From positions 1-52,073 of IMG/VR virus record IMGVR_UViG_3300025141_015674: a stretch of 52,073 nt of DNA, one strand, 5' to 3'. Numbering within the stretch: the stretch's first letter is position 1; each line of letters starts with the position of its first letter. The DNA is from a virus. Of the stretch, positions 5,201-51,341 are shown one piece after another. The notes under the pieces are model-generated. The model was not told the origin of the DNA, ran no database searches, and saw only the letters and a program-made list of their open reading frames with translations. A program made the position numbers and the translations under genes.

Positions 5201-5201
5201 G

Positions 5202-6903: not shown

Positions 6904-6913
6904 TAAATATCAA

Positions 6914-7921: not shown

Positions 7922-7925
7922 AAAT

Positions 7926-9395: not shown

Positions 9396-9396
9396 A

Positions 9397-11274: not shown

Positions 11275-11280
11275 ATAAAA

Positions 11281-25552: not shown

Positions 25553-25942
25553 ATGGCTGGCATAACACCGCGCCTTCCGCTTGCAATGGATGGTATTTAC
25601 GGGATTGCACTTATAACAGATTATAAAGATCTGGTAAAACAAAATTTTAAAAACTTATTGTTTACTATTCCTGGTGAACGAGTAATGGACGCTGATTTTG
25701 GAATTGGATTGAAAACTTTTTTATTTGAAATGGATAATCCTGGTCTTTATGGTCGCATTGCGGGAAAAATAAGGCAGCAAGTAAAAAAATATCTTTCTTA
25801 TATTACGATTGAGGACATTATTTTCAATTCTGCTGCTACCGATTCTAATTTAGATCCGAATTTTCTCAGTGTGTCTATAGAATACTCAATAGTTCCATTA
25901 GATGATGTAGACAAGATAGCAGTAACTTTACCCATAGACTAA
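25553..25942 (+). CDS. baseplate wedge protein, T4 gp25-like
   Basis: This 129-aa protein is close to the 132 aa of T4 gp25. It has the family pattern 'NFKNLLFTIPGERVMDADFG' (31-50), 'GIGLKTFLFE', then 'GRIAGKIRQQVKKYLSYITI' and a C-terminal strand region 'LSVSIEYSIVPLDDVDKIAV'. gp25/W-family proteins form the inner wedge of contractile-tail baseplates and nucleate sheath assembly. GGAGGAGA sits just before the ATG. The immediate downstream gene is gp6/J-like, the conserved gp25-gp6 order of myoviruses. This pair is the best evidence that the phage has a contractile tail. Confidence 0.92.
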   Translation: MAGITPRLPLAMDGIYGIALITDYKDLVKQNFKNLLFTIPGERVMDADFGIGLKTFLFEMDNPGLYGRIAGKIRQQVKKYLSYITIEDIIFNSAATDSNLDPNFLSVSIEYSIVPLDDVDKIAVTLPID

Positions 25943-25968: not shown

Positions 25969-27771
25969 TTGGGTGAAAAAAAACAATATCCACTTATTGA
26001 TTATACATCAAGAGATTTTAATTCTATTCGAGAAGATTTATTAGACTACGCGAAGCGATATTACCCCCATACTTTTAAAGATTTTAGCGAATCTGGTTTT
26101 GGGTCGTTGATGGTTGATACAACTGCTTATATTGGCGATATTTTATCCTTTTATTTAGATTACAGCGTCAATGAGTCTTTCCTTGATACTGCTATTGAAT
26201 ATGAAAATATTATTAAATTAGGACGCCAAATGGGTTATCGTTTTAACCCAAGTTCTGCCGCCGCTGGAGAAGCCTCATTTTATATTACTGTCCCCGCCGC
26301 AACAATCGGTGCCGGTCCAAATACTGATTATATTCCAATTTTGCAACGAGGGACATCTCTATCTTCAATCGAAGGCATTGGTTTTACATTAGTGGAAGAT
26401 ATTAATTTTGCTGATCCAAGCAATGAAATCGTAGTTGCTCAAGTTAATAGTGATACCGGCGTTCCTACTAGTTTTGCCATTAGAGCTAAAGGACAAGTTG
26501 TTTCGGGTAAAATAAATCGAGAACAAGCTGTGGTTGGTAAATTTGAAAAATTTCTTAAAATAGGATTGGCAGGAAAGAATATCACTGAAATTATATCAGT
26601 TATAGATTCCGAAGGCAATGAATATTTTGAAGTTGATTATTTATCTCAAGATACAATTTATAAAGCTACTCTTAATCGCGGAGATAACAGCACTATTACA
26701 CAAAATGTTTTAAAACCTTTTGTGGTCCCACGTAGGTTTGTTACGGAAAGAACTGAGACCAATGTATTTCTTCAATTTGGTTTTGGAACCAAAGATACAA
26801 CATTAGCAGCGGATTCCTTAGTTGATCCCAGCAAAGTTGTTTTAAAGGTACATGGAAAAGATTATGTTACTGATGCATCTATTGATCCGGGTAATTTTTT
26901 GAAAACCGATAAATTTGGCGTTGCCCCGAGCAATACAACTTTGACAATCATGTATCGTGTAAATGATGGAGATAACGTTAATGTTGCGTCCAATGCTTTA
27001 ACATCAGTGGATGCACCAGTTTGGGATTTTGAGAAATTATCTTCATTAAATTCTTCTACTCTTGGGAGTGTAGTTGGTTCTTTAGAAGTTAACAATGAAG
27101 AACCTATTACTGGTGATGTTACATTACCTACCACTGATGAACTAAAAACCAGAATTTATAATGTTTTTTCGTCCCAAAATCGTGCTGTAACAGCAGAAGA
27201 TTATAGAAGCTTATGCTACGCAATGCCTGCGCATTTTGGAGGAATTAAGCGCGTAAACATTGTGCGTGATTCAAGTTCATTGCGGCGAAATCTTAATTTG
27301 TATGTAATATCAGAAGCAGAGGACGGTACATTAATTGATACTAACAGTACAATAAAACAAAATTTAAAACAATGGTTAAGCCAAGGCAAAATGATTAGTG
27401 ATACATTAGATATTTTGGACGCTAGAATTGTTAATATTGGAATTGAATTTACTGTAATTGCTGGTTTAGAATCCAATAAATTTGATGTTTTGAGTGATGC
27501 TATCGGTGCATTAAGCGAATATTATACTCGAAAATTTGAAATTGGGGAACCTTTTTATGTTTCACACATCTATAGTCGTCTTAATAAATTGAAAGGTATT
27601 ATCGATGTTACCAGCGTCAAGATTATTCAAAAAGATGGACTGAATTATTCTAACGAATCTTTGGACATTAATTTACTTTATTCTGCTGATGGGAGTTATA
27701 TAAACTGTCCAAAAAATGTAGTTTTTGAAATAAAATATCCAGATACTGATATTAAAGGAACTATTAAATAA
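25969..27771 (+). CDS. baseplate wedge protein, T4 gp6 / phage J-like
   Basis: This 600-aa protein has the N-terminus 'YPLIDYTSRDFNSIREDLLD' and continues 'YYPHTFKDFSESGFGSLMVD' and 'LSFYLDYSVNESFLDTA', a strong match to the gp6/baseplate-J family (wedge heterotrimer core). Other family features are the 'SAAAGEASFYITVPA' sheet and the 'TDELKTRIYNVFSSQNRAVT' and 'EDYRSLCYAMP' region near 390-425. The start codon is TTG at 25969, eight bases after an AGAGAGG ribosome site (25954-25960); no in-frame ATG lies at the proper place. gp6 links wedges into the baseplate ring and binds gp25 and gp7. Confidence 0.92.
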   Translation: MGEKKQYPLIDYTSRDFNSIREDLLDYAKRYYPHTFKDFSESGFGSLMVDTTAYIGDILSFYLDYSVNESFLDTAIEYENIIKLGRQMGYRFNPSSAAAGEASFYITVPAATIGAGPNTDYIPILQRGTSLSSIEGIGFTLVEDINFADPSNEIVVAQVNSDTGVPTSFAIRAKGQVVSGKINREQAVVGKFEKFLKIGLAGKNITEIISVIDSEGNEYFEVDYLSQDTIYKATLNRGDNSTITQNVLKPFVVPRRFVTERTETNVFLQFGFGTKDTTLAADSLVDPSKVVLKVHGKDYVTDASIDPGNFLKTDKFGVAPSNTTLTIMYRVNDGDNVNVASNALTSVDAPVWDFEKLSSLNSSTLGSVVGSLEVNNEEPITGDVTLPTTDELKTRIYNVFSSQNRAVTAEDYRSLCYAMPAHFGGIKRVNIVRDSSSLRRNLNLYVISEAEDGTLIDTNSTIKQNLKQWLSQGKMISDTLDILDARIVNIGIEFTVIAGLESNKFDVLSDAIGALSEYYTRKFEIGEPFYVSHIYSRLNKLKGIIDVTSVKIIQKDGLNYSNESLDINLLYSADGSYINCPKNVVFEIKYPDTDIKGTIK

Positions 27772-29295
27772 ATGGGTATTAAAAGATATACAGCTACAAG
27801 TGACACTACGATTACAAATGCTTTTGAATCAAACTTAACTACTCGTGGTACTGGTAGTAATATGGGGTTGGCTGATTCTTTAGAGGTTTTTTCCATTTAT
27901 GCGCAAGAGACTAGTTCTTCGAGTGAGCTTTCTCGAATTCTTACTAAATTTCCAGTTGTGACGGCTGATGCCACCACGACAATTCAGGCAGATCGCACTG
28001 CGGGAACAATTCCAGCAAGCGGCAGTGTTGATTTTTATTTAAGACTTTACAACGTAAAACATACAGCTACTCTTCCAAGAAATTTTACATTGGTAGTTTC
28101 ACCAGTTTCTCAATCTTGGCAAGAGGGAGATGGTCTGGACATGGAGGAATATTCAGATTTAACGTATGATGGAACTGGATCTAATTGGATTAATGCGGCT
28201 GCTAATACAGTTTGGGTAAATAATGATAGCACAACATTAACGGGTGGCAGCTATTTGAGCGCTTCTTGGAACGGTTCTCCCACAACCACATATGATGAAT
28301 TTAATTATACTCAAACATTCGGAGAAAAAGGAACCGGGGATTTAGAGGTAAGAATCACTGGTCTTGTAGAAAAATGGATTGCAGGTGATTATAACAATTA
28401 TGGCGTAGGTATTATGCTTTCGCAAAGTCAAGAAAGCGGTTCTCAATCGTATTACACTAAAAAGTTTTCTGCAAGAAGTAGTGAATATTTTTTCTCTCGC
28501 CCAGTCATTGAGGCAAGATGGGATTCTAGCAGAAAAGATCAAAGGGGAAGTTTTTATGTTTCAAGCTCGAATTTAAGTGCAGCAGATAATTTAAACACCC
28601 TTTATTTATACAATTATGTGAGAGGTCAGCCCAAAGACATTGCAAATCTTGGAACTCTTCAGAGGCTTTATGTCAATGTTTATACTTCTGCAAGTGTCGG
28701 CCAGTTAATTTCCGCTGCTCCTAATAATCCTATTACAGGAGGTTATGTAACGACTGGTATTTATAGTGCTTCTTTTGCACTTGATACTTCAGCTAGTTTG
28801 GTATTCGATAGATGGTTTTCTGGATCATCGGGGTCTGCAATCACAACTTCGGGAGTGAAAGTTTACCATACAGGCTCCTTTATACCAAAGAAATTTAATT
28901 CTTCTAATATTTATTCTATTTTGCGCTACGTTACCACCATTACGAATTTAGAGCCTCAATATTATAATAAAGGCACAGCTCGGTTGCGCCTCTTTACTCG
29001 TTTAAAAGATTGGAGTCCAACTATTTACACAGTAGCATCTGAAGAAATTCAAAATAATATTGTTGAAGATGCTTATTTTAAAATCTTTAGGATGATTGAT
29101 GAAAAGGATGTTATCTCATATGGAACTGGTAGTTTAAATCATACAAGACTTTCATATGATGTAACTGGGAGTTATTTTGATATAGATATGAAAATGCTCG
29201 AAGCTGGTTATGCTTATGGAATTAAATTTGTATATTATATAAATGGTGCCTATCAAGAACAACCTGAAGTGTTTAAATTTCGTACAGTAGAGTGA
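27772..29295 (+). CDS. virion protein with DNRLRE/CBM-like N-terminal domain
   Basis: This 507-aa protein starts directly after the gp6-like stop. Residues 1-200 follow the pattern of DNRLRE-type carbohydrate-binding beta-sandwiches: 'TATSDTTITNAFESN', 'GSNMGLADSLEVFSI', 'RILTKFPV', 'DFYLRLYNVKHT', 'LVVSPVSQSWQEGDGLDMEE', ending with 'VRITGLVEKWIAGDYNNYGV' (196-215). The rest is Ser/Thr/Tyr-rich beta structure ending in 'KFVYYINGAYQEQPEVF'. It probably sits on the baseplate periphery, beside the giant lectin-domain protein. Enzymatic residues are not seen. Confidence 0.65.
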   Translation: MGIKRYTATSDTTITNAFESNLTTRGTGSNMGLADSLEVFSIYAQETSSSSELSRILTKFPVVTADATTTIQADRTAGTIPASGSVDFYLRLYNVKHTATLPRNFTLVVSPVSQSWQEGDGLDMEEYSDLTYDGTGSNWINAAANTVWVNNDSTTLTGGSYLSASWNGSPTTTYDEFNYTQTFGEKGTGDLEVRITGLVEKWIAGDYNNYGVGIMLSQSQESGSQSYYTKKFSARSSEYFFSRPVIEARWDSSRKDQRGSFYVSSSNLSAADNLNTLYLYNYVRGQPKDIANLGTLQRLYVNVYTSASVGQLISAAPNNPITGGYVTTGIYSASFALDTSASLVFDRWFSGSSGSAITTSGVKVYHTGSFIPKKFNSSNIYSILRYVTTITNLEPQYYNKGTARLRLFTRLKDWSPTIYTVASEEIQNNIVEDAYFKIFRMIDEKDVISYGTGSLNHTRLSYDVTGSYFDIDMKMLEAGYAYGIKFVYYINGAYQEQPEVFKFRTVE

Positions 29296-29299
29296 AGCC

Positions 29300-32200
29300 A
29301 TGTCTAATATTAAAGATCTTTTCAGCGGCAAAAAATCAGAGAAACTTTTAGAAAATGCAACCGGGCGTTCGGTGGGCTCATCTGTCGAATCAGCAGATTA
29401 TTTAAGATCTAATATTAAGAATAAAAAAAGATTTATTCCGCATGTTGATTTTTCATCAGCTTCTAATTTTGCTATATATGGTTCGGCTGAAAAGTATTAT
29501 GAAGATGCTTACAATTATATTTTAAACGAATATCCTTATGATGGTTCATTAAAAGACAAAATTAATTGGAGTCTCGCGGGGACCTATCTTGATCGATATA
29601 TTTTTGAAAATGAATACCCGCGTACCACTGGATATATAAATATAGGAAAATCTTATGGGTCTGTTACAGACGCAGGCACAGGATATGATGCTCCAAGTAA
29701 GAGAGAATGGATCTTTTTTAAGGGGAATAATGTAAATTATTCTCTCAATTCTCAAACTAATCCTGAGCTTACTTTACAATTTGATAATTTAAATATCTAT
29801 AATACTGCTAGCCAAGGATTATCCAATCTTGAATTAGAAGGCAGCGGTGGACTATCTGTTGAATTTTGGCTTAATAAATCGACTTTTAATGCGTCCGATG
29901 AATCCAACCGCCAAGTAATTGTGGATATATGGAATAGTGGAACTTATGATACGGCTGGCTATGGACGATTTCGTGTAGAAATTTCTGGAACCGAAGTTGG
30001 TGTAGTTAATCCGAACTTCAATGTAGAATTGTTGTCAGGAAGTGCAGGATTTTCTTGGCAAGGAGTTACACCTGGTGGAATTCCTAGCGTTGTTTTAAGT
30101 GGCTCTACTCTCACAGGATCTTGGAATCATTTTGCTCTTACTTTCGTAAATACAGGTAGCCAAATGGCTGGTCGCCTTTATACTAATGGTGATCTTACTT
30201 ACACCTACACAGGTGGCACTACGATGGGTATTGTTACGGGTTCCATGTTGGGTCAAATTGGTTCCCTTATTACAGCAGTTTCCGGAGGAAATGAAATACA
30301 GGGTGACGGCAAATTCTCGGGGTCATTGGATGAATTTAGATTTTGGAAAACGAGAAGAAATGCAACTCAAATTGGTCAGCATTGGTTTACACAAGTGGGC
30401 GGTGGTACGAACACTGATATTACTTTAGCAACGTCTGCATCTACCAAATATAGTTATGAAAATCCTGTTGATCTGGGAGTTTATTATAAATTCAACGAAG
30501 GAATTATAAATACGTCCAGTGTTAATGGCAACGATGCCGTAGTAATTGATTATGCTGGTCGTGTTACAAATGGACAATGGGAAGGATATTCGGTGGCTTC
30601 TCGAAACACTGGTTCTGCAATGGTTTCGGCGTCAGTTGTTCCCTACGAGTTCCCCGATCCTATTTTATATTCCACTAATCCCTTGGTGGCAGGTTCTTTA
30701 ACTGATAAGAAAAATATTGGAAAGTTATATGATGTTACAAATAATTCTTCAATGTTTGATTCGTTGCCACACTGGATTACAGCACAAGATGGAAACACGG
30801 GAAACGGTGCTTTAAAAAACTTAACTCAAATAATGTCGAGTTTTTTTGACACACTTTATTTACAAACTAAAGCAATTACGGGTCTTAAAAATAAGGATTA
30901 TATTAGCGGAAGTGATAAACCATTTCCGTTTGTTAATAGATTTATCGATTCTTCAGGATTTTTAACATCTGAAATTTTTTCGAAGGCATCAGATTTGGAA
31001 TATTTGGATGCTCGAAATGATAAAAAATTATTTACTGCAAAAATTAATGAACTTAAAAATCTAATATATCAAAATGTTTATAACAATTTAGTTTATGTCT
31101 ATAAGACAAAAGGAACAATGAAGTCCTTTAGAAATCTTATAAGATGTTTTGGTGTCGATGATGAATTGATTAATATTAGATTATATGGGGATCAAGTTAC
31201 ATATAAGATACAAGACAACTATAAAATTGCTACGATAAAAAAACGATATGCAAATTTTCATAATGCATCTAATTTTAATGCAGTTGTTTTTCAAGAAAAA
31301 GAAAGCGGCAACACTTATAGTCGCGGATATATTAGCTCTAGTGGAGAAGTTAAATATCGAGGAAATACTTATGAACTAGAAGCCTTTTTCCCCAAAGATA
31401 AAGAAAAAGGCACTTCTGTTTATTTTAATGCAGCTTTCCCAACAGCATCTATTTTTGGATGTCATACTTCCGGCGCGGCAGGAACAGTAGATTGGGGATC
31501 ACCAGATCATGGAAATTTCCAAGTTAAATCTATACGCACAGATATAAGACGCAAAGCGGCATATTTTCACTTAACTGGTACTGCTGGTGGTTTTTTCCCA
31601 TTGCTTACTAGTTCAGTTTTCCAAGATGTTTATGATGGAACCCGATGGAATTTTGCGGTTAGAGTTAAGCCTAAAAAATATCCCTTAGCTGCGGGGGTGT
31701 CGGGCAGCGATGAAGGACAATATGATGTTGAATTTAGTGGCTATAATTATGTTCTTGATGTTTTAAATAATAGCTTTATTGTAACTGCGTCATTGGACAA
31801 AACGGCAGCGCAAAACTTTTTAATTGCAAAGAAAAGATTTTTTGTTGGCGCTCATAGAACTAATACAATTGGTGCCGTATTGCAGGGAAGCAATGTTAAA
31901 GCATCTTCATTGCGCGTATGGATGGATTATCTTACAAGTGGTACACTTCAAGCTCATGCCAAAGATATTACAAATTTTGGTTCTGCGAATCCATATAGAG
32001 ATGCATACATTACTGCACCCAATACAACTTTGGGCAGCAAAGACGTTAAAGCAATTCCACAACTTGAAACATTAATTTTAAATTGGAATTTTGATACGCT
32101 GACTGGTTCTAATGCTGGCGGCAATTTTACAGTGCCTGATGTTTCTATTGCTTCGTCCGGCACTAATGATTATACGGCACGATGGGGCTGGCTTGGCCCA

Positions 32201-35200
32201 ATTGGTCAATATCAACATACAGGATATGGTTATGGGTTTGCAGCTAGTTCAACTAGTTCAATTGATAATCGCTATGTGCATACCGTATTACAACAACCCC
32301 CAGAAGTTATTAATAGTTCTGATATGATTTCTTTGATTGATAAAGACCGAAACAGCTTATTAGGTAAAGACTCTCGACCAGAGCAGTATTTCTTTGCTTT
32401 TGAAAAGAGCATGTATAACATTATAACTAAAGAAATGCTTGACATTTTTGGGACAATTGTGGATTTTAACAATCTTATTGGTGAGCCAGTAAATCGCTAT
32501 CGTGAGCAATATAAGAATATGGAAAAATTGCGGCAACTTTATTTTGAAAGAGTTCAAAATACAATTGATCTTGATAAGTTTGTTGAATATTTTAAATGGC
32601 TAGATTCAGCATTATCTGTGATGCTTCAACAACTTGTTCCCGGATCTGCTCGCTTTTCTGAAAATCTTCGTACAATGGTTGAAAGCCATGTGCTCGAAAG
32701 AAATAAATATCGAACTAAATTTCCAACATTAGAAATGAAACAAACTGATCCTGAAGCTGGTTTATTTGGAATTACTGAAATGCTGTATCCATATAAGCGT
32801 GGTCACGCGCCATCTTCGGCTGGTCCGGAAGGATCTGCGCAATGTGTAGGGTGGAAAACCTCAGTCGGCAATGCCCTTCGTGCCGGTAGTTGCGGTGGCT
32901 TGAGAAAAAATGTCCCAGGTGCCGCTTTGTGGAATACTTGGGCACATGCTGTTCCAATTGGTGTTGATTCTAGTGTAACATTTCAGGGTCGAACCATCGA
33001 TGTCAGTAATAAAGTTGGCTTAAAAACGACTGCCGGTGAAGTAGGTGATGAAGACTCAATCGATTTTAGTTTTTACTTCGACGGAGATGGTGACGTTGGC
33101 CCGGTGAACACACTTTATATTCGTGAAAATGGAGCCGACCCCACTGGTGGACTTTCTTGGACACTAACCACATTCGCTCATCGCTGGCGCATTACTCGTA
33201 ATATCGGCGGGACTGTTTTTTATCAAAAAAGTGAGGATGCAGGAGCCACATTTACAACAATCTATACAAGTGCCAAGACTACTACGGACATTTTATATCC
33301 AGTTATCTCAATGGAAGCACCGGGCGATTCAACCCATTCCGGCCTAGAAAATGCATGGATTCATCCCATCAACAGAACCGATACTCAATGTTTTTGGTGG
33401 AAAAATAGAGCACCAGCAAGACTTACAACTGCTGGAGATGCAACGATTGATAATCAGCGAGATACTTTTCGATTAGCAGGTGATTTTAGAAGTGCTAGTG
33501 GCCCAACTCTTGCAGTTTCCAGAAACTCAACTGCAAACACCACAACTTACACTGGACAAGCATATGCATTAAGAGATTTTACAAGAATTATACGATTATC
33601 AGCCGATGAGTCCCCAGAAATTCATGGTGGATCAAATTTTGCAAGAAATAAAACTGTCGAGTATACACACACAGCTCTTAAATTTGATTCGCCTAACCAA
33701 TTGCAAATTGCTGCTTCTAGTATTCCAGGGGAAATAGGCTGTGATGATGTTATTATACCCAATTCTAAGTTTAAATTAGAAGCCAAAGTTACCAATACCG
33801 TCGATCCTAATGGTTATACAAGTGGCAAAAGCGAAATATTTGCTCCATTTAGTTTATATAGTTCATCCGTTGTTGGTGGGTATCTCTCTGATGTGGCAAC
33901 AAACTTTAGGTCCAACACAGAAATTGATAATTATCACGACGATATTTATGGAGATGATAAGGGTATTCCGGCTCAAGGCCCATTTACCGAAAGGCATGTT
34001 GGTGGTCGTCAACATCGTCATCTTGATGTTAATACATCCTCGGCTACTACAATTTTTACTAGAGCAGAAGCTTGGAATTTATCTTTGGCTTCAAATACTT
34101 TAACTATTTCGCCTAGAACTGTGCATCAACCTCGCGCAACAATGATCCGTGATGCATACGCAAAACGTCCATTAAATATTGCTAATATTGAATGGGGAAC
34201 TTCATCAGCAGTTGCAGGCAATTATAGGTTTGGTTATGAAGTCCTTCAAACTTCAGGACGTTACATTAATAATAGATATTTTGTAAAAGCTGGTGGTTTT
34301 AGACCAAATGTTAATTTTATCACTGCATCTTCAACTTACATTTCCGGCGTTGTGGATTTTGCTTTACCACGTTATGATTTAACGGGGGCTACTGATTCTA
34401 TTTTTGTGGAAAGATTTTCAGCACCTGGTGGTCCCGAAGTTTCAAGAGGAAGACTCGATGTAAATGCCGAAGAATTGGGGGTTTATAACAATTTAAATTA
34501 TCGAAATTTGATTGTAAGAAATGCGTTGAACGGGTGGCAAACCGATCATTGTGGTCAATTTGGTATTGCTTCGGTCTCCGGCACAACGCGAGGATATCGT
34601 CAACCACGGTGGCAAAATTATAAAACGTTGGCTAGCTATCACAAGGTTAATAGAAACGGAAGGCAAGCAGCTCTATTAAAAGATGGTTATGATAGAGAGT
34701 TAGAGTTTACTGAATTATTTAATGTAACTTTATCTAACTATAATCGCACTTTAACAGGAAGATCTTCTCCAGGAAGTGCTAGTTGTAATCAAAAAATTGA
34801 GAGATTTGGATATTTTGAAGTAGAATTAAATGAGGCATCGTCTGGAGAGTGGATGATGGGTTTAACCCAAGTCAAGAGTTTTTGTGAGACAGATGGCTCT
34901 GGCCCGACGTGGGAATACACATGGGGACTCAACTACGGCTCACTAACCGTGCGTGAAAATGGATCTTGGCGAGCATCGGCTAGTGGAGTTGTAGCAATTG
35001 GCGATAAAATACGAATTGTAAAAAGCGGAACAAAAGTCAAATTTCAACATAAATCAGTTTCGTCCACTGATTGGATAACTGTCTGGAGTAGTGCAACAGA
35101 GGCGAGAGGCACTTTTTTTCCTGTCGCAGCTTTTGGTAATGCTTATGGGTTTACAAACCCACGAATAAGCAATCCGAGCTATGATAATTGGTTTGTTCGT

Positions 35201-38200
35201 CACACTCTTCCTCAAAGTGCATTGCAATATGCATGGATAAATAAATCATATGATATAAAGCAAGACCAACCATATGGTTATAATGGGAGTTGTCACGATT
35301 ATGGTGGATTAATTCCTTTTAGTGTGCCTTCAGGCACTACTTCCATGACGGCATCGGCAGTTAAGATACTCACTGGAACACTGCGCTACATAGGACACCC
35401 TGACAGTTTGCTGGATCATCCCATACCGGTTGCTTTCAACAGTCTGTTCACTATTGCCGGTCGGCAATATTCGAAGACCCACATGTATGGTTACAACAAT
35501 CAAATTACAGCTAGTACCAACACTATTAGTCCCGGATATTTTTTGTTGAGGAATGGTGGGATTTGCAAAGATATTTCTTATTATTATCTTAATCTTAACG
35601 GTCCTTATGGCTATCCATCTTGGAAACAAATAAGAGTTGGCGAAACACCACTTGCTCGGTATCAAAAAAGATACAATATTTTGTCTGTGATGGCACCACC
35701 TAGTATAGCGACAATAGCAGGTCGAGAGCCTGAAAGCGATGCAGTTCAATATGGGGGGTGGAAAGACGGGAAGTTGCAAACACTTACTTGGTTTAATACC
35801 CGCAGAGAAGGGTATAAAAATTTTGTTGAACCACCAGTTACCTTTAAGTATCGCCCACTTAGAAGTACGTTGCAAGATTGGAATATGCCCAGTAAACATT
35901 TGACACTACAGCATTCTTATGCGAACAACAAGGGTCTTTGGACTCAACGCGGTCTTCCTTTAAATGATCCAAACGCAAAATCAGTTGCTGAATTTCTTAA
36001 GGTTTTAAATTATAAATCTGATGCTCAAATTTATGATAAATTAAATGAATCTGAACAGTATAACTCACAATTTGAAAAATTGAGTTATTCTGAAGTAATT
36101 TATCCGCGTGAAGCTAACACAGGACTTGCAAAAACTCGCGGAAGAATCAAATACGCAGAAACCGCTTCGGTCATTAATCTTTGGAGGCACTCACCGTTGA
36201 CTGCTACTTTATCTCTTGGAAGTAACGGCATTGATCGCGGACCCCTTTATAGGCGCACATTTTGGGCATATCCCGACCGTCGAAATCGCCATGGAGCACC
36301 AGACGCCCCAGCAACGGTTGTTGGTTCAAGTTATCCTTGGTTTACCACTACGATTTCTAATTCATGTGGGAACCAAGATGGAAACGCAAGGAGTGTGTGG
36401 TGCTTTGGTGAAGAGCCGATTGTTTTTGGACCACCAACCGCCAGTGATCCGACCACTTTCGGTAAAAGTGCATTCTTGTCTGCGTCATCTGGTTATGCAA
36501 AAAATGATGGCCAAGATACGGGCGAACTTAATTCCATTAACATTATGAAAATTGGTGGATTAATGGGTGGAGTATCTGGCTCCGGCTTGGTAAATTCTTT
36601 TGCTCATCGTTTTTACACTAGACCATCTGCGTCGGCATATTATTATTGGCTACCTTATTATGGGATTGAAGCTGTAAGTGATGCTGCACCAGCCTATTGC
36701 GGGTCGAAAGGCTGCAATGCCATAGCGCTGGGCACACGCGCCAATGGCAGGTATACGTATGATTTCTGTAAAGGAATGAAGTGGACGGCTGCAAAGGATT
36801 CTGGGAAAGCCCCGTGGTTTGATTCTTATGAAGAATATGCTGAAGATATAAGAGGGCTTTCCAAAGCTTGGACGGTTTTGCCTGAATTTAGGATATCAGA
36901 TCATATGTCTTATTATATAAAAGATAAATCCGGCGATTTTCGATCTAAGAATGACAAGTTTTTATCATTAAATGGGGCAAATGTTACTCAAAGTGCTGAT
37001 CGTGAAGACGCTCTACCTAGTGAACCATTGGTTCGAGATTTTGATCATAATTTCTTTAAAGAATATTCATTCTCCGATTTTCAAAAATATTTTGGAACCT
37101 TTGCAGAAAATAAGAAACTTGATCATATTAGTTTAAAATGTAATGTAGTTAAAAAACTATTACCTTATAAGGGTTTTTATCCTGCCGATAGATCGACACA
37201 GTTGGTTAGTTTATTTTCGGGAGCTTTAGGATCACATTTGGGTGGTGGTGCTGTGACTGGTTCAGCAGGTGTTGGGATTTCCGCCCGCACTCAGTCGGGA
37301 TCTCAGCAATTAGCACTTCAAGCCCTTTTACAACCTTGGTTTGCGCCTGGTATTTTATATAACACTATTAAGTCTGGGATTGCGGTGGATTGGCCTGTGA
37401 TGACAGGGAGTATGTTGGGCGTCGGCGTCGGTGGGTACGCTGGGAATCGGTTTCTTAGTGGTAACGCAAACACTAGATTTCCTTTTCAATCTTTGCTTGA
37501 TCCCTTAGATTATGTTCCTGTATCTGAATCAAATGGAAGCCATAAATTGCTCTTTTTAGCACCCTCGTATATGAACGAGTCAGAGCATAAGAGAGAGCCC
37601 ATGCGAATCCCCTTTGCTGAATTCGCCCCCGCTCATCCACCCGGATCTGTAATGGATTTATACTCTTCGGCAATGCACAATTATTTGGCCGAAATACCAC
37701 ATTTCTTTTTAAAAAATTATTCACTTAACTCTATTGAGAGTGTTCCACAAGATCAAGTAACTATCGGCAAAGACGATATTTATGTGATGGATGTTTATAT
37801 CGAGAAAACAAATACCAAACCTAGTAATGAACTTATTATGATACAAGATTATTATAATGGTTATGTTTCTGCGTCGTTTGGGGATGCCAACTCAAAGGTA
37901 GCGATGTATGGAACAACTTGGGGTGGTGATGGCGGAACTGGTAATCCAGCTCTATATGTTGATGTTACTGCCTCGTACAATGGAAGATATTTCGGTCCTA
38001 AATGGACATGCAACATGCTTTCGCTACCGACCCCATCCAATGCCGGTTGGTACGCGGGCTGGGGTCCTCTGCGGGATGCGGATCCTTGCTATGCACCTCA
38101 CACACCTCCATATTTTTATGGTAAGGCGCGAGCCAGATTAGTTTATACAGGATCGGCTGATGATGCCGCAAGAGTTGGGGCCGGAACTGGGCCAAATTTT

Positions 38201-39619
38201 CGAACAATCTTTAATGATATGGTTATAGGAATGAAAGGTGCAACTGATCCACGTAATGTTGCTTGGACTAAATATAAGCAAAGCGCCGCCGGAACCCTAT
38301 GGGACAAAGGAGGTTACCGATTCTCATCAGCATATCAGAATATGATGGATATTACTGCTTCTTTGGATTTATTGGGAATAAGGATTGTTGATTCTTCCAA
38401 TGATGGATTAAACAGATGGGTTATTGCACCTTATATGGAAACTCCTGTTTTGGATTTTTCGCAAAGCCTTAAACCGGGCCACCCCTCATATTTGAAAGGT
38501 CAAACTCCGGAACCTGGTTATGGGCGTGGAATGTGGAGTGGCTATGGAGAAGTTCCACAAAGTCATAAAGGAATTTTCTTTGGGCTTCAAAATGCGACTA
38601 CGGAAGAATCCCTTTACCAAACAAGCATTGGTCAAAATCCGGCTAAAATTAAAGACATGACAGAATGGTTTAGAAGTGAGGGCTTCGAAACCCCCAGACG
38701 ACAAATTGGGCGTATGGCTCCTAGAAAAACGATTTCAGAAGCAATCGTGGCAATTCCTTTCTATGTAGGTGCTCCTTATGGGAGCCCAGATACACGCGCT
38801 AAATTAACAGTACCTTCAATTATGGGCAAGCGTTTTTTCAGTTTGGGATCCACGAAAACACAATCAAGAAACCTATACAATACTCTGAAAAATAATGCAA
38901 TTAATGGTGGTTGGGCTATTCCATTTCCTAGTGATCTTGCTACTCAATTGGGAAAAACCGAAGCTGTATCGTATACCTCGATTAGTCAAATGGGACTTGC
39001 AATGGACCGCTATATTTTCCCACCAGAACTTGACTTTAATAAATATTCAGATATTGAACCTTTTGCTATGTATATAATGGAGTTTCATCACACTCTTCAA
39101 CAACAAGATTTGGTGGATATTTGGCAAGGATTAATGCCCAAAATATCAATTAGAGCAGAATTAGACGAGGCAGCTCAATCTTGGCCAAATGCAAAAGGGG
39201 AATTTTTTGGTGGAAAACGTTTGCCACGATCAGAAAATATAAGATGGATGGTATTTAAGGTAAAGAGAAAGGCGCATGTAAATTATTGGGCAATTACTCC
39301 CACAACCGAAAAGGGACCAACACTGCGACGAGCAGCTGCGACTGTTAATCCGCTTGGTTTTGATTATAGTTATAATTGGCCTTATGATCACTTTTCTTTG
39401 GTGGAGCTTGCTGAAATAAAAACGGAAGCAAATTTTGTAAAACAACCTGAAGGTGGCGATGATATAGGTGAAATTCCCGATGACGAAGGTGGTCCAGGGG
39501 CCGCCGAGGGTGGTGCTGCGGGTGCCAGTGGCGACCAGGGCTCCAATTCAAATGAGGCAGGTGGTGATTCAGGAGCCACCGAGGGTGGTGCTGCGGGTGC
39601 CAGTGGCGACCGGGACTGA
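29300..39619 (+). CDS. giant (3439-aa) baseplate/adhesion protein with ConA-like domains
   Basis: One frame of 10.3 kb. Domains from N to C: a LamG-like lectin fold at about 180-365 ('LSVEFWLNKSTF', 'GKFSGSLDEFRFWKTRR'); a tail-protein-I/gp7-like segment at about 514-640 ('YKTKGTMKSFRNLIRCFGVD'); a second LamG-like region at about 715-905 ('RWNFAVRVKP', 'RFFVGAHRTN', 'SSLRVWMDYL'); two related ConA-like domains with an 'RENG' strand at about 1218-1357 and 1828-1957; then a long unrecognised Tyr/Gly/Ser-rich body. The C-terminus is a Gly/Ala/Glu tail with a repeated EGGAAGASGD. Position after gp25 and gp6 corresponds to T4 gp7. It is about three times gp7's length, so it may be gp7 expanded with host-binding domains. 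No protease or glycosidase motif is seen. Confidence 0.8.
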   Translation: MSNIKDLFSGKKSEKLLENATGRSVGSSVESADYLRSNIKNKKRFIPHVDFSSASNFAIYGSAEKYYEDAYNYILNEYPYDGSLKDKINWSLAGTYLDRYIFENEYPRTTGYINIGKSYGSVTDAGTGYDAPSKREWIFFKGNNVNYSLNSQTNPELTLQFDNLNIYNTASQGLSNLELEGSGGLSVEFWLNKSTFNASDESNRQVIVDIWNSGTYDTAGYGRFRVEISGTEVGVVNPNFNVELLSGSAGFSWQGVTPGGIPSVVLSGSTLTGSWNHFALTFVNTGSQMAGRLYTNGDLTYTYTGGTTMGIVTGSMLGQIGSLITAVSGGNEIQGDGKFSGSLDEFRFWKTRRNATQIGQHWFTQVGGGTNTDITLATSASTKYSYENPVDLGVYYKFNEGIINTSSVNGNDAVVIDYAGRVTNGQWEGYSVASRNTGSAMVSASVVPYEFPDPILYSTNPLVAGSLTDKKNIGKLYDVTNNSSMFDSLPHWITAQDGNTGNGALKNLTQIMSSFFDTLYLQTKAITGLKNKDYISGSDKPFPFVNRFIDSSGFLTSEIFSKASDLEYLDARNDKKLFTAKINELKNLIYQNVYNNLVYVYKTKGTMKSFRNLIRCFGVDDELINIRLYGDQVTYKIQDNYKIATIKKRYANFHNASNFNAVVFQEKESGNTYSRGYISSSGEVKYRGNTYELEAFFPKDKEKGTSVYFNAAFPTASIFGCHTSGAAGTVDWGSPDHGNFQVKSIRTDIRRKAAYFHLTGTAGGFFPLLTSSVFQDVYDGTRWNFAVRVKPKKYPLAAGVSGSDEGQYDVEFSGYNYVLDVLNNSFIVTASLDKTAAQNFLIAKKRFFVGAHRTNTIGAVLQGSNVKASSLRVWMDYLTSGTLQAHAKDITNFGSANPYRDAYITAPNTTLGSKDVKAIPQLETLILNWNFDTLTGSNAGGNFTVPDVSIASSGTNDYTARWGWLGPIGQYQHTGYGYGFAASSTSSIDNRYVHTVLQQPPEVINSSDMISLIDKDRNSLLGKDSRPEQYFFAFEKSMYNIITKEMLDIFGTIVDFNNLIGEPVNRYREQYKNMEKLRQLYFERVQNTIDLDKFVEYFKWLDSALSVMLQQLVPGSARFSENLRTMVESHVLERNKYRTKFPTLEMKQTDPEAGLFGITEMLYPYKRGHAPSSAGPEGSAQCVGWKTSVGNALRAGSCGGLRKNVPGAALWNTWAHAVPIGVDSSVTFQGRTIDVSNKVGLKTTAGEVGDEDSIDFSFYFDGDGDVGPVNTLYIRENGADPTGGLSWTLTTFAHRWRITRNIGGTVFYQKSEDAGATFTTIYTSAKTTTDILYPVISMEAPGDSTHSGLENAWIHPINRTDTQCFWWKNRAPARLTTAGDATIDNQRDTFRLAGDFRSASGPTLAVSRNSTANTTTYTGQAYALRDFTRIIRLSADESPEIHGGSNFARNKTVEYTHTALKFDSPNQLQIAASSIPGEIGCDDVIIPNSKFKLEAKVTNTVDPNGYTSGKSEIFAPFSLYSSSVVGGYLSDVATNFRSNTEIDNYHDDIYGDDKGIPAQGPFTERHVGGRQHRHLDVNTSSATTIFTRAEAWNLSLASNTLTISPRTVHQPRATMIRDAYAKRPLNIANIEWGTSSAVAGNYRFGYEVLQTSGRYINNRYFVKAGGFRPNVNFITASSTYISGVVDFALPRYDLTGATDSIFVERFSAPGGPEVSRGRLDVNAEELGVYNNLNYRNLIVRNALNGWQTDHCGQFGIASVSGTTRGYRQPRWQNYKTLASYHKVNRNGRQAALLKDGYDRELEFTELFNVTLSNYNRTLTGRSSPGSASCNQKIERFGYFEVELNEASSGEWMMGLTQVKSFCETDGSGPTWEYTWGLNYGSLTVRENGSWRASASGVVAIGDKIRIVKSGTKVKFQHKSVSSTDWITVWSSATEARGTFFPVAAFGNAYGFTNPRISNPSYDNWFVRHTLPQSALQYAWINKSYDIKQDQPYGYNGSCHDYGGLIPFSVPSGTTSMTASAVKILTGTLRYIGHPDSLLDHPIPVAFNSLFTIAGRQYSKTHMYGYNNQITASTNTISPGYFLLRNGGICKDISYYYLNLNGPYGYPSWKQIRVGETPLARYQKRYNILSVMAPPSIATIAGREPESDAVQYGGWKDGKLQTLTWFNTRREGYKNFVEPPVTFKYRPLRSTLQDWNMPSKHLTLQHSYANNKGLWTQRGLPLNDPNAKSVAEFLKVLNYKSDAQIYDKLNESEQYNSQFEKLSYSEVIYPREANTGLAKTRGRIKYAETASVINLWRHSPLTATLSLGSNGIDRGPLYRRTFWAYPDRRNRHGAPDAPATVVGSSYPWFTTTISNSCGNQDGNARSVWCFGEEPIVFGPPTASDPTTFGKSAFLSASSGYAKNDGQDTGELNSINIMKIGGLMGGVSGSGLVNSFAHRFYTRPSASAYYYWLPYYGIEAVSDAAPAYCGSKGCNAIALGTRANGRYTYDFCKGMKWTAAKDSGKAPWFDSYEEYAEDIRGLSKAWTVLPEFRISDHMSYYIKDKSGDFRSKNDKFLSLNGANVTQSADREDALPSEPLVRDFDHNFFKEYSFSDFQKYFGTFAENKKLDHISLKCNVVKKLLPYKGFYPADRSTQLVSLFSGALGSHLGGGAVTGSAGVGISARTQSGSQQLALQALLQPWFAPGILYNTIKSGIAVDWPVMTGSMLGVGVGGYAGNRFLSGNANTRFPFQSLLDPLDYVPVSESNGSHKLLFLAPSYMNESEHKREPMRIPFAEFAPAHPPGSVMDLYSSAMHNYLAEIPHFFLKNYSLNSIESVPQDQVTIGKDDIYVMDVYIEKTNTKPSNELIMIQDYYNGYVSASFGDANSKVAMYGTTWGGDGGTGNPALYVDVTASYNGRYFGPKWTCNMLSLPTPSNAGWYAGWGPLRDADPCYAPHTPPYFYGKARARLVYTGSADDAARVGAGTGPNFRTIFNDMVIGMKGATDPRNVAWTKYKQSAAGTLWDKGGYRFSSAYQNMMDITASLDLLGIRIVDSSNDGLNRWVIAPYMETPVLDFSQSLKPGHPSYLKGQTPEPGYGRGMWSGYGEVPQSHKGIFFGLQNATTEESLYQTSIGQNPAKIKDMTEWFRSEGFETPRRQIGRMAPRKTISEAIVAIPFYVGAPYGSPDTRAKLTVPSIMGKRFFSLGSTKTQSRNLYNTLKNNAINGGWAIPFPSDLATQLGKTEAVSYTSISQMGLAMDRYIFPPELDFNKYSDIEPFAMYIMEFHHTLQQQDLVDIWQGLMPKISIRAELDEAAQSWPNAKGEFFGGKRLPRSENIRWMVFKVKRKAHVNYWAITPTTEKGPTLRRAAATVNPLGFDYSYNWPYDHFSLVELAEIKTEANFVKQPEGGDDIGEIPDDEGGPGAAEGGAAGASGDQGSNSNEAGGDSGATEGGAAGASGDRD
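39506..39536 (+). repeat. 31-bp direct repeat, copy 1
   Basis: This copy is identical to 39581-39611, with a 75-base period. It encodes EGGAAGASGD in the tail of the 3439-aa protein. It is GC-rich in an AT-rich genome, and the period keeps the reading frame. Confidence 0.9.
39581..39611 (+). repeat. 31-bp direct repeat, copy 2
   Basis: This is the second exact copy of the repeat at 39506-39536. It ends eight bases before the end of the gene's stop codon. Recombination between copies would remove 25 residues in frame. Confidence 0.9.
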
Positions 39620-40685: not shown

Positions 40686-43600
40686 ATGCCAAATTATGTA
40701 TTAAACCCCCAACAAACAGTAGGTGAATTTTTACCTTCTGTTTATATTAATAAAATTACTCTTCGTAATTCCGTAAGTAATCCTCAAGATCTCAAAGTTG
40801 AATTAATTGTCACTGTTAAAGATGTGTTAACGTCTGGTAATTTATCTAAATGGTTTTCTCTTGGAACAATAGGCACAGCGGCAAATCCGAAAACCTTAAA
40901 AGATTATATCAAAATTAATATTATTCAAACTACTACACAAGAAGCTGCAATGCGCTGGTTGCACTATTCAAACAGACCACAGAGTATGTATGTAAATACC
41001 CGAGATGTTGTAGCAGGTTCGGGCGCAGCTAAAAAGATCTTTAGTATAACAGATTTCGATAATGGTCTGCCACTGGGCAATCAATACTCAGAATATGATG
41101 CGAATGGAAATTCGATTAAAAATATGAGTCTTATTATTAATACGAACGACTTTAAAACAGACAATAACGACGCACTTGCACCTAATGATAATTATTTATC
41201 TTATTTTGTATGGGCTAGTTTTGACATTGCTGCGATGGCTTTGGACTGGCGTGTGGATGCCAACACCTTAATTCTTGAAGGACAATCATATTCCACTCCA
41301 TTCATAGGAAAAATGAATTCGAATATTGTGTTTAGAAATAGTAAACTAGTATCACAAGGTTATATTTTTTTTGAAGCGGAAAAGAGGATTGGCGTCCAAG
41401 GTTCTAATTCAGGTATATTACGAAAAACTAATAAGTTGTGGACTGGCCCCGTTTTTTATAGAAACGTTACAATTGATGGACAAAATCTCCGACTACCAAT
41501 GGGCGGACGCCAATATAATGCTGCGGCACATGCAGCGGGTCAGCAGCCTTGGCTTGTTAGACAAACTATACCATATAGAAAAGTACAAGATTTTAGAAAT
41601 ATAAATCGTTTGAACAAACTTAAATTTGATTTTTCTATTATCGAAAATGAATTATTACGAACACTTACGCAAGATCGGGGTGGAATCGTTCCAGAAAATC
41701 AATTTGCTTATTTTACTAATATCTTTTTATCCCGTGATCAAAATAATAATTGTAGATTTTTATTTGGAATAGATTTGCCAAAAATGGTGAGAGAAAATTC
41801 TCCTTATTCACGACTTTTTCTTGCGACTAATCAAAAAAGTCCATGGTGGTTAGCCAGAATAATGAATAAGATTCAGATTATTTCAATGAAAATTTATCGC
41901 AAACGTACCGTTGGAAGTTCTGAAGTTGGAACTAGTCCGTATTATTATCCCGGAGATCATCGCTTTGATCCTGTTCCAAAATTGAAAAAATTTGATAATG
42001 GATTAACAAGATTAACTCGAAATATAACCAATCATCTTACAACTTATGATCCTTCTGAAGAATTTATAATATGTGGTGGTGAAAAGCCAAACGCTGCTGG
42101 GAATGGGTTTAGTTTTAATTCATATTCCGAAGACGGTGGTTCGAATATTAGATTTTTGACAAATGGGATTGCGAATCGAGGTGCCGTGGCTACTTCCGCC
42201 GCTGGTGGTAAAATGTATTATTTTACTGGTACTGATGCAAAAATGTCTGAAAATACCGATGGATATTATCAATATAAAATTGAAATAGAAATACAAGATA
42301 ATGTGGTTGATTTTTTAATTGAACAACGAACCAGACTTTTGGATTCTCGAAAAAGATTGCAAGAATATTATTCAATAGCTACATCAACTAATGGGAAAGA
42401 AACAAACCAAAGACTTAAAGATCTGGGAATAGCGATGATAGATCCAGAGCCACCACCATTTTTTAATCCTACTACCAATCGTTTTACTCAAGCGTTTATG
42501 ACTACTCCTATTGCTGCCCAACATGGGAACAGAGCAGACGATATAAATAATTACATTAGGATATTGAAAATGTTTGTAAATTTGCGAGCTGATACAGCAG
42601 CGGATAAGGGTGATGAAGCTGATATTAGAGCGGCTTTAAAAAATTATATTAGACCTCAGTCCGGTAATCCTGAAGGCATTTTGGTAGTTTTGAATCTTTA
42701 TGAATCATTAATTTCTTTTTTGAATCAAGCGATTGGTATTCGAAAACAAAAACCAAGCGAACGGACTGCTGGGGTTGATGCTGGTATGCAAACAGATCCT
42801 GGTACTGCATCGTCGGTTCTTAGGACTTTTAAAATAGAACATACTTTCGAAGATTATTTTGATGCTAATATACCAGTAAATTATGGATTTGATTTTCTTG
42901 GTGCTGGCTATAATAGTCCTTCCACGAATCCTTTGATTCCATCGGCAATGGGATTACGAGTTATTAACGCTGATACATATGAAAATTCTATTGTGGCAAA
43001 TGAATTAAAAAAGATATTTAATTCTACTACGGCTCCTTTCGAATTGCGTGCAATGAAGCGAGAAAAAGGAATAAATGCAGGCACCGATTTACGAAATACA
43101 GATTTTACTTTTTTAACTCCCGCTGTTGTTTATCCGGGCGTGAACAGCACCCCGTTAGCTTTGGTTGGCAAAGGTACTGATGCAGCACCTAATGTAAATG
43201 ATGCGACTTTTATGAATATGGCAGCAGGATTTCTCAGTCGAAATTATGGGAACCAAGTTTTGCATCCCACAAATACCCTCCAAGAAACCGTGGCAGATTT
43301 TCTTTCATATAATTATAATTTAACTGCGGTTCCGGATCCCGAACCACAAATAACCCTAAACGATCCTGGTACAAATCTGACAGAACAATTTAGTTCTACA
43401 CCTAATGAAGATTATTATGCATCATCAAATGCTCAAACAAGAGAAAATCAGTATGCGTTTGATGTTTTTTGGAATTTAATTTCTAATGGTGTTGTGAGCG
43501 CAGGAAACCGCGCAGGCGTAAAATTGCCCGAAGGTTCTAGTCAAAAACCTGTAGACTATTATAGCGTTACAAATACCAATGGGTTTTGGAATGCTTTTGA

Positions 43601-44600
43601 ATCTTCTTTCCCATCGGACGATCCAAACACTCACCTGACGAAAGAAGGACAAATGGCACGAGCCGCAAAGAATTTACCTAATCCTATTAAAGCATTAATA
43701 AGATATAATGATGAACAGACTTTGCAGGCTGTACAACTGACACCTGGAACTGATGCTTTAAAATCAGAAATAGATACTTTTTTAGGTAACGATCCTTTTA
43801 GGCGTGCTAGCTTAAGTGCCAAGGCTCGCATATTGTTCGACACAATTGGGCAAATTGAGTACCTGAATGAGTTTGGGAGAATATCTCCTCGACCCGGCAG
43901 TCAAGAGAAATCAGCAAATATGGACCGATGGCTTCCTTTAAATCGCCAAGTTTTTTCAACTTACAGTATTGGTTATCCTCTTTTGTGTAGAATAAGACCT
44001 TGGGAAAATGTCATTTTTAAAACAGAGAGACAAGAAGGAAGCAATTTACCCACCTATGAAGAATATTTTTTGTTAGTGGAGGGAAGTATCGATCTCCCCG
44101 ACAATATTCGCGAGCCCGTCGCATATTATGCCGCTGGTGGTTCGCAGACCGATCCCGATTCCCCCGAAGTAGATTATCAGGATAATATCGCTGAAGAAGC
44201 TATTCCCGATTACGCTGATAGCTCCAGCGATGGTGACGGCGTACCTGATGACTATTCCGAGAATTCGGATTACGAGGACACATCCGATGGACAGAGCGGC
44301 GGTGTAGGGGACGATGGGGGCCAAGGTGCTGGCCAAGGTGATGGCGGCGATGCTTATGGTGATGACAACGACGCAGCTGCCGCCGCTGCCGCTGAACAAC
44401 AACGCCAACAAGAAGAAGCCCGTCTACGCCTAGCCCAAGACCAGGCGCGTCAACAACAGCAAGCCGCCGCTATCGCTGCTGCTGCCGCCGCCGCCGCTGA
44501 ACAAGCAAGGCTGCGCAGACTCGAAGAACAACGCCGCCGAGCAGCTGAAATTCAGGCAGCCGCCAATGCCGCGAAGGGCATGGGAATTGGAACGTCATGA
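40686..44600 (+). CDS. large (1304-aa) virion protein with acidic and Ala/Gln-rich C-terminal tail
   Basis: The first 1150 residues look folded: beta-rich at the N-terminus ('QTVGEFLPSVYINKITL', 'DLKVELIVTVKDVL'), helical around 540-690. Then comes an Asp/Gly/Ser-rich acidic stretch (about 1155-1228) and an Ala/Gln/Arg-rich helical stretch (about 1229-1297) resembling TolA- or tropomyosin-like low-complexity helices. The tail DNA is strongly GC-rich compared with the rest. AAGGA precedes the start inside the upstream gene's end. No catalytic motif is seen. A tail-fibre-related or baseplate-peripheral role fits its position. Confidence 0.72.
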   Translation: MPNYVLNPQQTVGEFLPSVYINKITLRNSVSNPQDLKVELIVTVKDVLTSGNLSKWFSLGTIGTAANPKTLKDYIKINIIQTTTQEAAMRWLHYSNRPQSMYVNTRDVVAGSGAAKKIFSITDFDNGLPLGNQYSEYDANGNSIKNMSLIINTNDFKTDNNDALAPNDNYLSYFVWASFDIAAMALDWRVDANTLILEGQSYSTPFIGKMNSNIVFRNSKLVSQGYIFFEAEKRIGVQGSNSGILRKTNKLWTGPVFYRNVTIDGQNLRLPMGGRQYNAAAHAAGQQPWLVRQTIPYRKVQDFRNINRLNKLKFDFSIIENELLRTLTQDRGGIVPENQFAYFTNIFLSRDQNNNCRFLFGIDLPKMVRENSPYSRLFLATNQKSPWWLARIMNKIQIISMKIYRKRTVGSSEVGTSPYYYPGDHRFDPVPKLKKFDNGLTRLTRNITNHLTTYDPSEEFIICGGEKPNAAGNGFSFNSYSEDGGSNIRFLTNGIANRGAVATSAAGGKMYYFTGTDAKMSENTDGYYQYKIEIEIQDNVVDFLIEQRTRLLDSRKRLQEYYSIATSTNGKETNQRLKDLGIAMIDPEPPPFFNPTTNRFTQAFMTTPIAAQHGNRADDINNYIRILKMFVNLRADTAADKGDEADIRAALKNYIRPQSGNPEGILVVLNLYESLISFLNQAIGIRKQKPSERTAGVDAGMQTDPGTASSVLRTFKIEHTFEDYFDANIPVNYGFDFLGAGYNSPSTNPLIPSAMGLRVINADTYENSIVANELKKIFNSTTAPFELRAMKREKGINAGTDLRNTDFTFLTPAVVYPGVNSTPLALVGKGTDAAPNVNDATFMNMAAGFLSRNYGNQVLHPTNTLQETVADFLSYNYNLTAVPDPEPQITLNDPGTNLTEQFSSTPNEDYYASSNAQTRENQYAFDVFWNLISNGVVSAGNRAGVKLPEGSSQKPVDYYSVTNTNGFWNAFESSFPSDDPNTHLTKEGQMARAAKNLPNPIKALIRYNDEQTLQAVQLTPGTDALKSEIDTFLGNDPFRRASLSAKARILFDTIGQIEYLNEFGRISPRPGSQEKSANMDRWLPLNRQVFSTYSIGYPLLCRIRPWENVIFKTERQEGSNLPTYEEYFLLVEGSIDLPDNIREPVAYYAAGGSQTDPDSPEVDYQDNIAEEAIPDYADSSSDGDGVPDDYSENSDYEDTSDGQSGGVGDDGGQGAGQGDGGDAYGDDNDAAAAAAAEQQRQQEEARLRLAQDQARQQQQAAAIAAAAAAAAEQARLRRLEEQRRRAAEIQAAANAAKGMGIGTS

Positions 44601-44617
44601 GGAGACAATAATTAACA

Positions 44618-50984: not shown

Positions 50985-51341
50985 ATGATAATGAAAAAAG
51001 AACTTAAAAATTGGCGAAAATTCTTAATGGAAGCAGAAGATCCTTCTCATGATAGATATGAAGCTAATTTATATTTATCTATTGATCAATCCAAACCAAT
51101 TGATCGTACAGAAGTTATGAATGAAATGCGAGCGATTCCAGAGGTTACAACTGTTTATCGTGAAAGGGAAGTTTCAACTTCTTCTGTGGCTTTTGTGGGA
51201 GAATATATTGTTCGTTTTATTCTTCCTTCCGCCTCCGACGCTGCCAGTTATTATAATCGCGAATTAAAACCACGACTCAACTCTATTAAGGGATTAAAAA
51301 TCCAACGAGATTTGGGTTATGAAAAAATTGGTGATGAATGA
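50985..51341 (+). CDS. small phage protein, unknown function
   Basis: This protein of about 118 aa starts at 50985 or at a second in-frame ATG (50991); neither has a good ribosome site. The N-terminus 'KKELKNWRKFLMEAE' is a basic amphipathic helix, followed by an alternating strand/helix body ('YEANLYLSIDQSKP', 'VAFVGEYIVRFILPSA', 'YYNRELKPRLNSIKGLKI') that could be a ferredoxin-like fold. Its stop overlaps the ATG of the resolvase gene (ATGA), indicating coupling. The function is not known; it may be a small accessory of DNA metabolism or head assembly. Confidence 0.7.
   Translation: MIMKKELKNWRKFLMEAEDPSHDRYEANLYLSIDQSKPIDRTEVMNEMRAIPEVTTVYREREVSTSSVAFVGEYIVRFILPSASDAASYYNRELKPRLNSIKGLKIQRDLGYEKIGDE

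Follow-up and report, generated by a model that had tools for sequence, protein, structure and literature searches.

Bacillus phage Vp4 encodes Gp119, a baseplate wedge 3 protein with carbohydrate-binding module (CBM) folds that binds bacterial cells (PMC11406892). Gp119 is 831 aa long, compared with 341 aa for Gp177 of phage Deep-Blue (PMC11406892). In skunaviruses, the evolved Dit proteins contain in-frame carbohydrate-binding insertions that are present or absent among close relatives (PMC10688798; for 936 phages, also PMC6669499). The CBM insertion in Dit affects adsorption to EPS+ cells and allows infection of EPS-producing hosts (PMC10688798).

Here, we analyzed a 52,073-nucleotide virus record from IMG/VR (IMGVR_UViG_3300025141_015674), which is probably a fragment and is referred to below as the window. 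It encodes a giant protein at the baseplate position. Our main finding is that the giant is a conserved scaffold broken by about ten insertion slots; a slot that is filled in one phage can be empty in a close relative.

Position of the giant gene and its relatives

We found that the giant gene is one uninterrupted frame that starts with ATG, so the 3,439-residue protein proposed in the original prediction is intact. The relatives preserve both the frame and the domain order, which argues that the ORF is not a chance one. The gene and its upstream neighbors are as follows.

25553 to 25942, + strand: gp25 baseplate wedge protein (PF04965, E = 5e-12; PHROGs)
25969 to 27771, + strand: gp6/J-like baseplate wedge protein (phrog_6, E = 2e-22; phrog_219, E = 4e-21)
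27772 to 29295, + strand: conserved protein of 507 aa, encoded by the gene that separates gp6 from the giant (conservation in relatives)
29300 to 39619, + strand: giant baseplate-position protein, 3,439 aa (ORF call, homologs, and gene lengths)

The giant had been described as following gp25 and gp6. Both do lie upstream, but gp6 is not adjacent because the conserved 507-aa gene intervenes, and Pfam and PHROGs profiles gave no family match for this gene. The giant thus lies shortly downstream of gp25/gp6, which is the gene order of the T4 gp7/P2 gpI class. Further large genes of 351, 1,304, 933, 373, 390, and 385 aa follow it.

Our initial search of IMG/VR found three close relatives of the giant. 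A two-sequence profile of its N-terminal part found at least 141, and the 80 that we fetched are 32 to 82% identical to the window giant over residues 1 to 1167. The family ranges from 2,658 to 4,756 aa, the lower figure being that of complete genes and the upper that of an open frame. In one relative (L022, 8001 to 11171), the giant frame ends after 1,056 aa. The order gp25, gp6, 507-aa gene, and giant was found in all members examined, both close and distant, and the 351-aa gene is often next. In the two nearest relatives, residues 1 to 1165 are 82% identical to those of the window, compared with 76 to 85% for gp6 and the 507-aa gene. The body of the giant diverges faster (48 to 53% identity). 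Residues 1 to 1165 are therefore as conserved as gp6, which fits the expectation for a core wedge part.

We found no match to the giant in INPHARED by megablast or tblastn (E = 1e-3). Foldseek matches among viral structure predictions were uncharacterized proteins, some from uncultured marine viruses or phages, with at most 38% identity. This suggests that family members have been deposited but not named.

The bridge from the giant family to named phages is the gp6 comparison. The window gp6 is similar over its full length to proteins of Flavobacterium phage immuto, Microcystis phage Mel-JY01, and a 484-kb uncultured phage (LR756508). We found that these phages encode homologs of 1,265 aa (immuto gene 162), 1,336 aa (Mel-JY01), and 1,400 aa (LR756508) that are placed as the giant is, downstream of gp6. 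One gene separates gp6 from the giant in the window, and two genes separate gp6 from the homolog in immuto and Mel-JY01. Two of these homologs, those of immuto and Mel-JY01, score against the giant profile at its helical core (E = 3e-18 to 5e-18; hhalign probability, 98.9%). The Mel-JY01 protein has extra matches near profile positions 743 to 886 and 1010 to 1112, and the LR756508 protein was tied to the Mel-JY01 homolog by tblastn. These shorter core homologs at the same place in three phages are the best evidence that the giant occupies the wedge 3 (gp7/gpI/BW3) position.

Direct comparison with T4 and P2 gave weaker signals. A KGT motif in residues 587 to 630 aligns in register with P2 gpI (E = 0.003 to 0.09; hhalign probability, 1 to 11%). 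The hhalign probability for the giant core against T4 gp7 was under 1%. PF09684 (Tail_P2_I) gave four subthreshold matches (12.7 to 13.8 bits) in 56 records, all within the giant family gene and two of them from near-identical genes. P2 gpI relatives in IMG/VR are near-identical and were unusable for profile building. The tail-I-like segment that had been claimed for the giant is thus only suggestive: the motif is in register, whereas the profile probability is low and the Pfam matches fall below the threshold. T4 gp7 itself has 1,032 aa and a weak fn3 match at its N terminus, and it has no lectin-family match.

Other genes of the window were noted as well. A sugar operon (410 to 14037) encodes a DegT aminotransferase, several NAD-dependent epimerases/dehydratases, a GDP-mannose dehydratase type, SDR, PhyH, and PfkB proteins, and three radical SAM proteins, two of which have B12-binding domains. 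Such B12-radical SAM chemistry looks unusual within a phage sugar cluster. A gene at 14812 to 15525 has a weak match to a T4-type late sigma factor (phrog_234, E = 1e-4), and 51338 to 51874 encodes a RuvC-like Holliday junction resolvase (phrog_159). Upstream of gp25, 17405 to 25537 encodes a 2,710-aa protein without a Pfam or PHROG match; it is 42 to 44% identical in the nearest relatives, compared with 66 to 84% for gp25/gp6. The 1,304-aa and 933-aa genes downstream of the giant (40686 to 47419) have no family matches and are 43 to 50% identical in a relative (L002). They are candidate receptor-binding or peripheral baseplate proteins.

Predicted folds of the giant

We divided the giant into the following segments, all on the + strand.

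29618 to 30649, + strand: LamG/pentraxin-like (ConA-like) domain, residues 107 to 450, conserved in the whole family (Pfam, PDB profiles, AlphaFold2 [AF2], and VIA)
30662 to 31189, + strand: helical core with the KGT motif, residues 455 to 630, including the possible tail-I-like segment (HMM and hhalign to the immuto and Mel-JY01 homologs)
31217 to 32104, + strand: second, probable ConA-like domain, residues 640 to 935 (AF2 and tandem LG alignments)
32357 to 32734, + strand: second helical core segment, residues 1020 to 1145 (family conservation; Mel-JY01, 5e-8; immuto, weakly)
32810 to 33382, + strand: insert 1 (slot ~1200), a SPRY-family module of residues 1171 to 1361 (absent in L005, L006, and L057)
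33392 to 34654, + strand: conserved body between slots, residues 1365 to 1785 (family alignment)
34664 to 35188, + strand: insert 2 (slot ~1880), a SPRY-family module of residues 1789 to 1963 (absent in L005 and L006)
36797 to 39439, + strand: conserved C-terminal scaffold, residues 2500 to 3380 (alignment of relatives)
39446 to 39616, + strand: low-complexity Gly/Ala/acidic tail, residues 3383 to 3439 (poorly conserved)

AF2 models covered residues 1 to 1168 (mean pLDDT, 71) and 1150 to 2000 (mean pLDDT, 55). Pfam found one domain in the giant, Laminin_G_3 (PF13385) at residues 175 to 358, with 38.1 bits against a cutoff of 27.6. For the domain at residues 107 to 450, PDB profiles matched 4qvs and 4c1w, and AF2 confidently predicted a pentraxin/LamG-like fold (VIA Z, 19.7; 207 residues aligned, spanning about 107 to 449). 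The LamG-like domain of the original prediction is thereby confirmed as a member of the ConA-like superfamily, by a profile match above the curated cutoff and a predicted jelly-roll fold.

A second confident beta-rich region was predicted within residues 640 to 1000, with pLDDT of about 75 to 95 over most of residues 640 to 935. In VIA, tandem laminin LG structures align as far as residue 934. An hhalign comparison with the first LamG domain was in register yet nonsignificant, and residues 640 to 935 had no Pfam match and no PDB sequence match. We therefore grade this region as probably a ConA-like domain. Its equivalent is present in Mel-JY01 and absent from immuto, which suggests that the second domain was itself added.

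For insert 2, AF2 predicted an all-beta module (pLDDT, about 60 to 90). Its best VIA matches were TRIM SPRY domains (Z, 15.7; root mean square deviation, 3.8; 158 aligned), with the lectins ERGIC-53 (Z, 15.1) and VIP36 and with CBM66 also matched. The Pfam SPRY match was 13.9 bits, below the cutoff. The model of insert 2 is clearly a SPRY/L-type-lectin-like beta-sandwich. Insert 1 was also predicted to be all-beta (pLDDT, about 65 to 90) and shows HMM homology to modules in late slots; it had no individual PDB structure match. The VIA matches listed leave the helical core and insert 1 uncovered, with their folds neither assigned nor excluded, and T4 gp7 was not among them. Domain-wise structure prediction, which had been proposed as a check, thus returned ConA-like folds at residues 107 to 450 and in insert 2. 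The further ConA-like domains that had been claimed were found in inserts and probably also at residues 640 to 935.

In the model of residues 1150 to 2000, only the inserts and some short patches were predicted well; the remainder was poor. Residues 2500 to 3380 had no PDB sequence match and no PHROG match. The C-terminal tail contains near-repeats of EGGAAGASGD and is not conserved in relatives.

Insertion slots and their modules

To map the slots, we used window-anchored BLAST maps of 55 nonredundant relatives and spacer lengths for ten anchor pairs. We found that the unaligned stretches of the relatives cluster at the same window positions, that slot lengths are bimodal, and that occupancy states recur on the N-terminal tree. 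Slot ~1200 is 41 to 47 aa long in most members; in 8 of 32 it measures 164 to 297 aa, and we counted at least seven changes on the tree. Slot 1598 is occupied in 6 of 46 members (six changes) and slot 1880 in 8 of 32 (five changes); slot 2060 shows four changes. All these counts are minima; they come from a quick N-terminal tree and are only as good as the BLAST maps behind them. Slots 949, 1670, 2570, 2715, and 2980 are filled in one or a few lineages. We rejected slot ~2400 as a clean slot because its lengths vary continuously.

Slots ~1200 and ~1880 are filled in the window, and both are empty in its nearest relatives, L005 and L006. L057 also lacks a module at slot ~1200. A further pair, L017 and L018, shares 98% DNA identity over the first 4,018 nucleotides of the gene, after which a module is present at slot ~1200 in L018 only. 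An identical copy of L018 came from a second assembly (L061). Close relatives thus differ in their insertions while sharing a conserved scaffold, whose assignment to the baseplate is based on position and homology.

We compared 56 insert sequences, 54 from relatives and 2 from the window, with Pfam. Sixteen matched Laminin_G_3 (best E, 1e-41), four Pentaxin, three Laminin_G_2, and two FG-GAP. The same module types were found in different slots. Window insert 1 is 43% identical to the insert in slot 949 of L018 (E = 5e-28), and a stretch in slot 1880 of L057 matches window insert 1 (E = 4e-7). A SPRY-type profile detected such modules 18 times, in 11 proteins and at about six positions. As a control for circularity, we built HMMs from early slots only and from late slots only and searched them against all proteins and reversed copies. 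The early-slot HMM detected late-slot modules with E values down to 6e-17, and the late-slot HMM detected early-slot modules down to 4e-13. Insert 1 was detected by the late-slot HMM (2.7e-12) and insert 2 by the early-slot HMM (3.5e-5). Reversed sequences gave no matches to either HMM. Within the fetched stretches, SPRY-type modules are confined to the giant gene. Other modules, probably of the LamG type, also recur across slots. Many apparent cross-slot BLAST rows with E values of about 0 were whole-length alignments with differing midpoints rather than module reuse, and we ignored them.

The evidence supports well the prediction of a baseplate-position protein with several lectin-fold domains of its own, and the case is stronger than proposed, with inserts that are gained, lost, and reused.

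Interpretation and comparison with known systems

We propose, with a probability of roughly two-thirds, that the giant serves as wedge protein 3 in the baseplate of a contractile tail, taking the place of T4 gp7, P2 gpI, or A511-type BW3, and that it has grown into a rack of lectin-fold modules for adhesion. According to this model, its anchor in the wedge with gp6 would be formed by the helical core, the N-terminal LamG-like domain, and the second probable ConA-like domain. The long conserved body would reach outward and offer its roughly ten slots as surface loops, which may tolerate SPRY-like, LamG-like, and occasionally FG-GAP modules without breakage of the scaffold. Recombination could then account for the observed gain, loss, and reuse of modules between slots. 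With several copies per baseplate, the modules might engage surface polysaccharide through many weak interactions, either ahead of the dedicated receptor-binding proteins or together with them. Both sugar binding and the virion location of the giant are what we infer. The giant is probably the means by which these phages attach to sugars of the bacterial surface and alter that attachment. The adhesin reading is favored by other phages, in which a wedge 3 protein and Dit carry CBM inserts that support binding to cells or adsorption.

The modules might instead be structural spacers or stabilizers that contact virion proteins, with the giant simply an enlarged wedge. Many SPRY and ConA-like folds are protein binders or purely scaffolding parts. 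SPRY domains of cellular proteins mostly bind proteins, and the best structural matches of insert 2 are TRIM SPRY domains. The fixed LamG domain is kept family-wide, as expected of a structural part. However, the inserts are dispensable in close relatives and strongly divergent, a pattern that fits a variable external target better than an internal one, and they include LamG, pentaxin, and FG-GAP types. We consider the spacer explanation unlikely. Selfish or mutagenic elements, such as inteins, homing elements, or targets of a diversity-generating retroelement, would also fit the pairs of empty and occupied sites. The inserts, however, are predicted to be lectin-like or all-beta and match Laminin_G families, and none of the 56 had a nuclease-like Pfam match. 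We found no reverse transcriptase in any of 15 records, including the window, several of which may be fragments; this makes a diversity-generating retroelement unlikely. We give such elements almost no weight.

The fiber-like length and modularity of the giant could also indicate a tail fiber, tape measure, or other appendage protein that is merely located after gp6, and the undetectable relationship to T4 gp7 and the intervening 507-aa gene leave room for this. In contrast, other phages have, in the corresponding position, a single gene homologous to the helical core, and in one of these phages, immuto, fiber and spike genes are annotated elsewhere. The N terminus evolves as slowly as gp6, and we found no collar domain and no S74 domain in the window. 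We regard an appendage protein as improbable, more so than structural spacers. The original suggestion that the giant perhaps replaces separate tail fibers was not supported: other large genes lie downstream of the giant, immuto has annotated fiber and spike genes downstream, and one family genome encodes two Peptidase_S74 fiber-type domains.

Thus, we favor the third wedge protein enlarged for adhesion. Tentatively, and at somewhat less than even odds, a whole myophage lineage may have turned its wedge into a polyvalent adhesin that can evolve: about ten fixed slots would take lectin modules of shared families, swapped between slots and phages, so that surface specificity is tuned without changes to the tail-fiber genes. 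Tail fibers and spikes are the usual source of host-range inferences for uncultivated phages. Should the wedge bear exchangeable lectin modules, determinants of adsorption would lie in a gene that annotations do not name, in a lineage with relatives that reach Flavobacterium and Microcystis phages. The empty and occupied pairs (L017 and L018; the window and L005 or L006) provide natural comparisons for the spread of adhesion modules in a structural protein.

Among cultivated phages and LR756508, the homologs of the giant share its helical core and its position after gp25-gp6. They differ in length (1,265 to 1,400 aa), in having no detected match to the N-terminal LamG domain or the body, and in having no annotated function. 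T4 gp7 and P2 gpI share the position after gp6/J and, for gpI, the KGT motif in register, but the sequence relationship is nonsignificant. Vp4 Gp119 resembles the giant, by description, as a third wedge after gp25/gp6-type wedges that is enlarged by carbohydrate-binding-type folds. Unlike the giant, it belongs to Herelleviridae, has two CBMs (CBM16 and xylanase-CBM type), and has no reported reuse over about ten slots. Evolved Dit likewise has in-frame insertions into a conserved baseplate protein, as the giant does at the baseplate position, and in both these vary among close relatives. In contrast to the giant, Dit is a siphophage distal tail protein with other CBM folds and insertions of 168 or 319 aa. 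Compared with both Gp119 and Dit, the giant has many more slots and a different scaffold. We concluded that the giant is a real and widespread enlarged variant of CBM-inserted baseplate proteins, of which we found no description in the literature searched, and that the surprise lies in the reuse of modules over multiple slots.
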